From Planctomycetota bacterium (GTDB taxonomy: Bacteria; Planctomycetota; Phycisphaerae; Phycisphaerales; SM1A02): 64,000 nt of DNA. The notes beneath the pieces were generated by a model. It did no database searches and was not told the DNA's origin. It saw only the letters and a list, made by a program, of their open reading frames with translations. The translations under genes were made by a program, and so were the position numbers. The stretch's first letter is position 1. Every line of letters begins with the position of its first letter. Below are positions 35,843 to 45,943 of this stretch, piece after piece. The stretch is from contig VGYX01000011.1 of the NCBI GenBank assembly GCA_016872835.1, positions 1 through 64,000 of the forward strand. Reading direction: 5' to 3'.

Positions 35843-35902
35843 GTCGGACCTCCTGCCCGACCTGTCGCGCCGCGGTGCTCCAAGCCTCCGCAATTCCATG
35901 CG
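35843..35902 (-). promoter_or_regulatory. csrA leader with two GGA-loop hairpins
   Basis: On the minus strand, hairpin CGCA-TGGAAT-TGCG (35889-35902) and hairpin GTCGG-GCAGGAGGT-CCGAC (35843-35861) both display GGA in the loop. The second loop is the csrA Shine-Dalgarno sequence itself, one base before the ATG. CsrA binding here would block ribosome entry, so autorepression is predicted. Confidence 0.65.
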
Positions 35903-35938: not shown

Positions 35939-35967
35939 AAGGTAGCCGGAACCGCGGCCCGACCCAA
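35939..35967 (-). promoter_or_regulatory. Predicted csrA promoter
   Basis: On the minus strand, TTGGGT (35962-35967) and TACCTT (35939-35944) are 17 bp apart. Transcription would start near 35932 and give a leader of about 90 nt. It lies downstream of the terminator at 35996-36037, so csrA can be expressed separately from the upstream RNA. Confidence 0.5.
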
Positions 35968-35995: not shown

Positions 35996-36037
35996 AAAAC
36001 GAAAATGCCCCCGCAGCAGCGTCCCGCTGCGGGGGCA
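35996..36037 (-). terminator. Rho-independent terminator of the GGA-hairpin RNA
   Basis: Minus-strand arms TGCCCCCGCAGC (36026-36037) and GCTGCGGGGGCA (36006-36017) form a perfect 12-bp stem with loop GGGACGCT, followed by TTTTCGTTTT. The loop itself contains GGA. Confidence 0.92.
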
Positions 36038-36293
36038 TCGACGGATGGACGCCGAAGCGTCCGTTGGGCATCTGCCGCCTTCCATGGCGAGCAGAATCCC
36101 TGACAGAGGCGGGCCGTCCATGGCCCGAGTGATCTTCGCGGCGCGGGTGGCTCGTGGGGGCCGTCCGTGGCCCGCTCGTCGCCAACCGTCCGCCTACGAC
36201 CTGCCGAGGGCCGTCCGTGGCCCGGGGCAGGTCTTCGCTGGCTCCACCGCGAATCCTGCGGTGGGGTCGGAAGTCCCGTGCAAGGCGTCGCGC
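35996..36293 (-). ncRNA. Candidate CsrB/RsmZ-like CsrA-binding RNA
   Basis: This gene-free stretch between the mraZ stop and csrA reads, on the minus strand, as a series of hairpins exposing GGA: CCACCGC-AGGATTC-GCGGTGG (36244-36264); an 8-bp outer stem GACCTGCC/GGCAGGTC enclosing GGGCC-ACGGAC-GGCCC (36198-36233); GGGCC-ACGGAC-GGCCC (36158-36173); CGGGCC-ATGGAC-GGCCCG (36110-36127); and TCTGC-T-CGCC-ATGGAA-GGCG-GCAGA (36071-36095). A TTCG-capped GGACGC/GCGTCC hairpin (36047-36062) and a terminator follow. Eleven GGA trinucleotides occur in about 295 nt. The loops fit the CANGGANG CsrA consensus. No separate promoter is obvious, so it may be made as the mraZ 3' UTR and processed. Limits of the 5' end are unknown. 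Confidence 0.7.
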
Positions 36294-36758
36294 TCAACCG
36301 GCTGCGCGGTTGCGGAGCGCCTCGCGAGCCTTGCGCCACACGTCGGTGGTCGAAGGCTCCAATCGATCGCGTTCCCCCTTCCATTGCTGGGGCGTGCAGA
36401 GCTCAAGGTGATCGCGCACCCCGAGAATGACGATGGTGCCGGCGAGCCCGAAGCGCTCGAGCATGCGATCCGGAATGCGGATGCGGCCCGCCTTGTCGAG
36501 CGGGGTGCGCGCGGACTGGCTGAAGACGAGGCGCTCGAAACTCTGCAGCGAGTCATCACCGACGAGCGAACCACCGAGCGCCTTCGCGAGTTCGGCGAAG
36601 GTGTCCTCGGGCCAGAGCCAGAGAAATCCGTTGGGACCAGGTGCCGCGACGAAGACCGCGTCCTCGCCCTCGCTCGGCATGCACGCGCGAAGTTCGCTCG
36701 GCACAGCCAAGCGTTGCTTCGCATCAAGGGCATGTTCGAATTCACCGAGGAAGAGCAT
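36294..36758 (-). CDS. mraZ: Transcriptional regulator MraZ
   Basis: The 154-residue protein has the two SpoVT/AbrB-like MraZ domains: MLFLGEFEHALDAKQRLAVP at the N-terminus and RTPLDKAGRIRIPDRMLERF in the second half. MraZ normally heads the dcw division cluster, but rsmH, ftsL and the mur genes are absent here, so it is an orphan. ATG at 36758 gives the canonical N-terminus; GTG at 36773 would add five residues. Three operator-like repeats lie directly upstream. Confidence 0.95.
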   Translation of the reverse strand: MLFLGEFEHALDAKQRLAVPSELRACMPSEGEDAVFVAAPGPNGFLWLWPEDTFAELAKALGGSLVGDDSLQSFERLVFSQSARTPLDKAGRIRIPDRMLERFGLAGTIVILGVRDHLELCTPQQWKGERDRLEPSTTDVWRKAREALRNRAAG

Positions 36759-36776: not shown

Positions 36777-36818
36777 ACTCTAAATCCTTATGCCCCACTT
36801 TGCAACACTTCGCCCCAC
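36777..36818 (-). promoter_or_regulatory. mraZ promoter with triple MraZ-type operator
   Basis: On the minus strand three hexamers, GTGGGG (36813-36818), GTGTTG (36803-36808) and GTGGGG (36793-36798), recur with an exact 10-bp period, as in the TGGGN repeats bound by E. coli MraZ. A TAGAGT -10-like hexamer follows at 36777-36782, so the operator overlaps the -35 region and autorepression is expected. The middle repeat is degenerate. Confidence 0.75.
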
Positions 36819-44839: not shown

Positions 44840-45943
44840 TCAGGCGCCGACGGCGGACCAGCCGGCGTCCACGATGGCGTCGGTCGCGTCGTCCAGCACC
44901 GCAGGCTGACCCGGGCCACGAAGCAGCACGAGACGCCTGCGCCCGCCGGAACCCTTCTTGTCGAAGCCCATCGCGACGTTCAAGGTCGCACGATCCACCG
45001 ATGTCGGAACCTTGGTTGGCAGCCCGACTTGCGCAAGCGCCGCCGCAACCTCGGCTGGGTCCGCGTCTGGCCACCAGCCCGCGGCCCTGCTTGCGGCGAC
45101 CGCCGCGACCAGCCCGATCGCCACGGCCTCGCCATGACGAAGCCGATCGTGCAACACCGATTCCAGCGCGTGTCCGAACGTGTGGCCCAGATTCAGGTGG
45201 GCCCTCTCGCCGCACTCGAATTCGTCCCGGCTCACCACTGCCGCCTTGATCGCGACGGAACGACGGACCAGTTCCTCCAGCGCGACGGGCTCGCGCGCCA
45301 GGATCGACGCGCACGTGCCGCGCATCCACCGCAGCATCGCAGGATCCGCGATCAGCGCGTGCTTGACGCACTCGGCCAGCCCGCATCGGAAGTCCCGGTC
45401 CGACAGCGTGGCCAGGGTGTCCACGTCGCACAGCACCCACGACGGCGCATGAAAGGCGCCCGCGAGGTTCTTCCCAAGTCCACCCTTCGGCAGCGGCAGG
45501 TTCACCGCGGTCTTTCCGCCGATCGACGCGTCGACCATCGCCAGCAGCGTGGTCGGCGCCATCACCAGCGGAATGCCACGAAGGAACGTGGCGGCGGCGA
45601 AACCGGCCAGATCGCCCGCGATGCCGCCTCCCAGTGCGACCAAGGCATCGCCGCGTTGCATGCCGGCCTGCAGCATGGCGGCCCATACGCGCTCGACTGC
45701 GGCGATCGACTTCTCGTTCTCGTCGGCCTGCAGCGGCACGACATGCACGCGCAGTCCCGCCGCCTCCAGCGACGCGTGCGCGGCGGGCGCCCATCGCGTC
45801 CGCACACCCTCGTCCACCGCCAGCATGATCACGCGCGCGCCCGGCACCGCCTTGCGGACACCCTCGCCCAACACCGACAGGCCACCTCGGCGCACCGAGA
45901 TCGCGCAGTCGCCGCGGCTTCCATGCACGCAGGGATCAGCCAT
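44840..45943 (-). CDS. aroB: 3-dehydroquinate synthase
   Basis: AroB carries out the second shikimate step (DAHP to 3-dehydroquinate). The 367-residue enzyme shows the NAD-binding block ALGGGIAGDLAGFAAATFLRG, PTTLLAMVDASIGGKTAVN, the zinc-ligand segment GLAECVKHALI, and the ligand histidines in NLGHTFGHALE and RHGEAVAIG. The length matches the family. No other aro genes are adjacent. The 136 bp downstream, before the ParA-like gene, contains only a GC-rich palindrome (CCCCGCGGGG). Confidence 0.96.
   Translation of the reverse strand: MADPCVHGSRGDCAISVRRGGLSVLGEGVRKAVPGARVIMLAVDEGVRTRWAPAAHASLEAAGLRVHVVPLQADENEKSIAAVERVWAAMLQAGMQRGDALVALGGGIAGDLAGFAAATFLRGIPLVMAPTTLLAMVDASIGGKTAVNLPLPKGGLGKNLAGAFHAPSWVLCDVDTLATLSDRDFRCGLAECVKHALIADPAMLRWMRGTCASILAREPVALEELVRRSVAIKAAVVSRDEFECGERAHLNLGHTFGHALESVLHDRLRHGEAVAIGLVAAVAASRAAGWWPDADPAEVAAALAQVGLPTKVPTSVDRATLNVAMGFDKKGSGGRRRLVLLRGPGQPAVLDDATDAIVDAGWSAVGA

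Follow-up and report, generated by a model that had tools for sequence, protein, structure and literature searches.

The gene-free interval between mraZ and csrA in the window (the whole 64-kb stretch of DNA analyzed here) raises the question of whether its minus strand specifies an RNA that titrates CsrA, as a preliminary description of the sequence had proposed, and to which of the two neighboring genes such an RNA would belong. From the mraZ stop codon to csrA, the minus strand at 36293-36004 carries six hairpins, all located within a few bases of where that description had placed them, and a terminator, as follows:

36004..36293, minus strand: putative sponge RNA region of about 290 nt, either the mraZ 3' UTR or an independent sRNA, that runs to its own terminator
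36244..36264, minus strand: hairpin 1, covarying stem, compensatory changes in 4 of its 7 pairs
36200..36231, minus strand: hairpin 2 (inner hairpin 36208-36223), loop ACGGAC, extended stem
36158..36173, minus strand: hairpin 3, loop ACGGAC
36110..36127, minus strand: hairpin 4, loop ATGGAC
36075..36090, minus strand: hairpin 5, loop ATGGAA
36047..36062, minus strand: hairpin 6 (GGACGC-TTCG-GCGTCC), covarying stem (helix 6)
36004..36039, minus strand: intrinsic terminator, 16-bp stem followed by TTCGTTTT, between the RNA and csrA

Hairpins 2 to 5 have perfect stems and a C-G pair closing an ANGGAN hexaloop, and all four are exact matches to CANGGANG, confirming the earlier observation that these loops match the core bound by CsrA. 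Their sequences are GGGCCACGGACGGCCC at both 36208-36223 and 36158-36173 (two identical 16-mers), CGGGCCATGGACGGCCCG at 36110-36127 and TCGCCATGGAAGGCGG at 36075-36090, the last of which has a G-U type end as its last pair. None of 5000 dinucleotide shuffles contained at least four CANGGANG matches (mean 0.16), and none contained at least four strict hairpins (mean 0.012, with a maximum of one per shuffle). The total number of GGA triplets had also been presented as about twice the expectation. This is correct against base composition (11 versus 5.4), but not against dinucleotide composition, for which 7.65 are expected and 357 of the 5000 shuffles (7%) reach 11; the raw enrichment is thus not significant and was dropped as evidence. 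The predicted fold of the 298-nt minus strand has an energy of -167.8 kcal/mol (z = -5.3), and the sponge RNA region was called on the basis of this value, together with the covarying structure and the covariance matches in relatives described below. No second cluster of hairpins was found in the 64-kb window, which holds just three isolated strict hairpins elsewhere, at 45581 (plus strand), 43657 (minus strand) and 46040 (minus strand).

Genes for CsrA were present in all 40 relatives searched. Thirteen readable mraZ-csrA intervals, from 15 same-genus genomes, were aligned with the window to give 14 sequences, and in those 13 genomes the interval lies in the same order and on the same strand. 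We found that the GGAs of the four hexaloops are invariant in all 14 genomes, while the stems vary; those of hairpins 2, 3 and 4 show compensatory changes, and that of hairpin 5 is nearly invariant within the genus. When local structure was scored in the 14 sequences, 97.3% of the stem cells were paired, as compared with 34.8-50.6% when the partners were slid. Of the 56 base pairs, 21 showed two-sided changes that preserved pairing, and the number of cells changed on both sides was 72, as compared with 22.5 in shuffles (0 of 500 shuffles). Covarying stems around invariant GGA loops, which the preliminary description had suggested seeking in relatives, are therefore present within the genus. 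The same alignment reduces the number of conserved GGA sites from the seven originally counted to four. Both the loop of hairpin 1 (36244-36264) and the terminator loop lack GGA in that half of the genus whose genomes have a low GC content, and the sixth hairpin exists as described, with its GGA at 36060-36062 forming part of the stem. Hairpin 6 is unlikely to be a CsrA site, the GGAs of all three elements are probably not CsrA sites, and hairpin 1 is probably a structural element. The terminator is conserved in structure, with compensatory changes in 5 of 13 pairs. We also noticed that the heptamer ATCCGTC, which separates hairpin 6 from the terminator on the minus strand (36040-36046), is invariant in every same-genus copy; it is complementary to CsrA sites of the GACGGAT type and might represent, in this genus, a pairing or anti-GGA element.

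Beyond the genus, the analysis covered the regions downstream of mraZ in about 45 genera belonging to the GTDB family, which named records place in the Phycisphaerales and which is represented mostly by environmental MAGs. Strict hairpins were counted separately on each strand of the 450 nt that immediately follow mraZ (mraZ strand first, opposite strand second) and then in the 450 nt beyond. In this order, the counts were 118, 0 and 1 at 62 family loci; 20, 0 and 0 at 20 loci of the order; 15, 0 and 3 at 20 loci of the class; and 1, 0 and 0 at 20 loci of the rest of the phylum. The signal is thus weaker in the order and class, and absent in the remaining phylum. In nearly all genera of the family, the mraZ strand bears between one and four strict hairpins and the opposite strand bears zero. 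Of the 77 named family loci with mraZ, 74 carry one or more strict hairpins, always on the mraZ strand. Two observations at the order level count against the sponge reading: 10 of the 20 loci lack strict hairpins, and at the loci of another family, designated f5, a small ORF replaces the RNA, with the hairpins there falling mostly in coding sequence. The f5 loci were dropped from the order-level claim for this reason, which leaves 15 hairpins in 16 loci after removal of their five. The ORF, seen 0-290 nt after mraZ at L113-L116, is conserved, encodes about 70-90 aa and has a core resembling DPDWxPAxISDRxLxELxxRLExVxxLGGxFAxIxxS; the f5 genomes tested are without csrA1. The covariance model R1, which represents the 3' part of the RNA, matched the position after mraZ in eight genomes, with E values from 2e-11 to 2e-7 (best 1.9e-11), so that the search of relatives envisaged in the preliminary description recovered the RNA position in other genera.

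These counts bear on two explanations in which CsrA has no part. The array could be a palindromic repeat acting at the DNA level (REP-like) or a set of terminators, devoid of function as RNA, as the two identical 16-mers in the window might suggest. However, the stems differ among copies and species with the loop alone constant, and compensatory changes and a strand asymmetry that is complete (118 to 0) contradict such an array, which we regard as so improbable as to be nearly negligible and rejected. Alternatively, the stem-loops could bind another protein, or the RNA could base-pair, for example via ATCCGTC, the resemblance to CsrA sites being coincidental. The invariance of that heptamer within the genus would fit this idea, but the heptamer is confined to the genus (24 of 88 loci) and was rejected as a general element, whereas ANGGAN hexaloops on one strand recur across about 45 genera and csrA is the neighbor. 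We consider this possibility very unlikely.

To which gene the RNA belongs can be judged from the features that flank it:

36793..36818, minus strand: MraZ-box-like repeats, GTGGG-N5-GTGTT-N5-GTGGG, overlapping the -35 element and the spacer
36777..36805, minus strand: putative mraZ promoter, TTGCAA, 17 nt, TAGAGT, identified by aligned layout
36294..36758, minus strand: mraZ coding sequence, 154 aa (Pfam MraZ PF02381, score 56.5 bits, cut-off 23)
35939..35967, minus strand: putative separate csrA promoter read from the sequence, TTGGGT, 17 nt, TACCTT
35868..35902, minus strand: csrA leader element, a helix with an ATGGA bulge and a GGA loop
35605..35841, minus strand: csrA1, coding for the presumed target, a protein of 78 aa (Pfam CsrA, 51.8 bits)

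Across the approximately 45 genera, the gene conserved upstream of the RNA is mraZ. The orientation of csrA is the same as that of mraZ in the genus of the window and in several others, and convergent in many (most) genera; csrA1 adjoins in either orientation throughout the family, and other families of the order lack this adjacency of csrA and the hairpins are still found with mraZ. The original proposal of a csrA-linked sponge therefore holds for the genus of the window, but the stable partner is mraZ. These data also bear on the idea that the hairpins are a cis-acting leader through which csrA is autoregulated, rather than a trans-acting RNA. In the genus of the window, csrA does follow the region immediately and in the same orientation. 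However, a strong terminator and a promoter-like sequence intervene, a distinct leader element exists besides, and the hairpins stay with mraZ where csrA is convergent or non-adjacent. Because csrA faces the RNA in many genera, we assign the RNA to mraZ and reject the leader reading, which is contradicted at the family level and extremely unlikely. The distinct element recurs in genera with the same-direction mraZ-csrA layout, and its helix with an ANGGA bulge keeps one layout in three different sequences (the window, L013 and L044-L054). This recurrence with different sequence suggests autoregulation, and the element is probably the site at which CsrA would act on its own mRNA.

The terminator at 36004-36039 is the sole one found in 1.1 kb and lies behind the RNA, so that transcription of mraZ should enter the RNA and stop before csrA. 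A strict scan for the sigma-70 consensus gave no match, and the promoter call rests on the aligned layout TTGCAA-N16/17-TANNNT, which precedes mraZ at 69 of 86 family loci, a count that includes several loci from one and the same genome. We infer that 36777..36805 is the promoter of a joint transcript of mraZ and the RNA. The MraZ-box-like repeats (GTGGG, spaced by 10 nt) occur upstream of mraZ at 51 of 62 family loci, a count that likewise includes loci sharing a genome, as compared with 0 of 62 downstream of mraZ as a control. Both the boxes and the repressor activity of MraZ are established for E. coli, and the repressor activity also for Mycoplasma genitalium (PMC8475190); repeats of this kind over the mraZ promoter therefore suggest that MraZ would set the RNA level. 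The RNA is thus probably an MraZ-controlled 3' UTR, as indicated by the overlap of the repeats with the promoter.

Taken together, these results make it likely, in our judgment, that a structured RNA linked to mraZ displays CsrA-binding stem-loops and titrates CsrA1. The RNA would be transcribed with mraZ or just after it, most likely starting at the mraZ promoter, and would end at its own terminator. Its several near-identical ANGGAN hexaloops, closed by C-G, would bind the CsrA1 encoded next door by competing for the RNA-binding pocket. The RsmE dimer binds two neighboring loops of RsmZ, and by analogy each CsrA dimer may bind two neighboring loops here. The residue of CsrA1 that matches the RNA-binding Arg44 in an alignment to E. 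coli CsrA (1y00) is kept, and this arginine does not vary among 10 family members. The amount of free CsrA1 would then be set by the transcript level, the MraZ boxes would let MraZ set CsrA1 activity, and CsrA1 would probably repress its own mRNA through the GGA element in its leader. A different use of the same sites is that CsrA1 stabilizes or destabilizes the mraZ mRNA through its 3' UTR, with titration being incidental. This would agree with the fact that the hairpins stay linked to mraZ both within the family and outside it, and with the lack of a terminator between mraZ and the hairpins, but several near-identical sites of strong consensus exceed the need of one target, and the presence of csrA1 next door in either orientation family-wide suits a device centered on CsrA. 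We regard it as unlikely as the main role, and the two roles are compatible.

The proposed titration of CsrA1 would place the RNA beside CsrB and CsrC of E. coli and RsmX, RsmY and RsmZ of Pseudomonas. It shares with them a series of stem-loops whose loops contain GGA, the CANGGANG core, a conserved noncoding structure, a terminator and a CsrA with its RNA-binding residues; titration of CsrA dimers, the feature of the class, is presumed here. Unlike those RNAs, it is tied to mraZ rather than being a free gene, is found in another phylum and coexists with FliW. Four conserved sites are few relative to the 22 GGA of E. coli CsrB (PMC7652899), which counts against the sponge reading, yet the number is similar to that of the Rsm RNAs. 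Rfam scans placed no family above its threshold; in particular, the models CsrB, CsrC, RsmX, RsmY, PrrB_RsmZ and TwoAYGGAY gave no match above the gathering threshold in the window (the best score, for rsmX, was 20.2 bits against a gathering threshold of 56), and none in a scan of 20 family loci. Exact matches to the GacA/UvrY-type box TGTAAG-N-CTTACA numbered 0 in the 64-kb window. As far as the sequence tells, the RNA would work like CsrB/RsmZ and lies outside every Rfam family of that class, and the CsrB/RsmZ-like interpretation put forward originally is supported as largely right. TwoAYGGAY (RF01731) and Bacillaceae-1 (RF01690) are predicted CsrA-binding RNAs proposed outside Gammaproteobacteria (PMC4333381). 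They differ in having two sites, in occurring in Clostridia, gut Gammaproteobacteria or Bacilli, and in giving no match here, and linkage to csrA or mraZ is not reported for them. UpsM of Rhodobacter sphaeroides, an sRNA that is likewise linked to mraZ (PMC5089854), is not known as a CsrA sponge. UpsM is situated in the 5' leader of mraZ, in contrast to the present RNA, which lies after the gene.

FliW is anti-correlated with the BarA-UvrY regulators of CsrA-titrating RNAs and serves as the antagonist of CsrA elsewhere. The preliminary description had named FliW as the usual antagonist outside Gammaproteobacteria; FliW is indeed present, in 37 of 41 genomes, but in coexistence with the RNA and not as a replacement for it. 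In the genome of the window, fliW directly precedes a second csrA distinct from csrA1 (contig C5, 52891-53499). Two family genomes (G016 and G020) have neither FliW nor the second csrA and keep csrA1 and the hairpins, and the four f5 genomes tested have the FliW-type csrA alone. The predicted RNA and the protein antagonist therefore coexist in most of these genomes. FliW, too, restrains CsrA, but it is a protein that acts allosterically at a separate surface of CsrA (PMC7652899), whereas the RNA would act at the RNA-binding pocket.

Up to 2014, Gammaproteobacteria were the only group in which CsrA-titrating RNAs had been identified (PMC4333381), and a 2020 review stated that joint action of FliW and an sRNA in any species remains to be determined (PMC7652899). 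We found no report of a planctomycete CsrA sponge or of a link between CsrA and mraZ in the literature searched, most subscription journals lying outside its coverage. A well-conserved RNA family of this kind in about 45 genera of another phylum, with FliW in most of the genomes, would imply that CsrA sponges arose more than once, would tie CsrA to the cell-division regulator MraZ, and would supply directly testable genomes for the question of joint action. The whole scenario, in which MraZ sets the level of free CsrA1 by repressing a sponge in the mraZ 3' UTR, the second CsrA is under FliW, and the RNA is the first such family of Planctomycetota, with an origin separate from CsrB/RsmZ, seems to us about evenly balanced between right and wrong.

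With respect to further copies, R1 places just one in the genome of the window, and a second sponge was not found there. Triple CANGGANG arrays in this genome occur at the sponge and on contig C3 only, and those on C3 look protein-coding. Tandem 21-bp repeats, CACGGATGGTCGCGGCTCGCT, with many consecutive CANGGANG matches, were also observed within long open frames at L241 and L242 of another genome (G024, contig C1 near 751900 and 75300).
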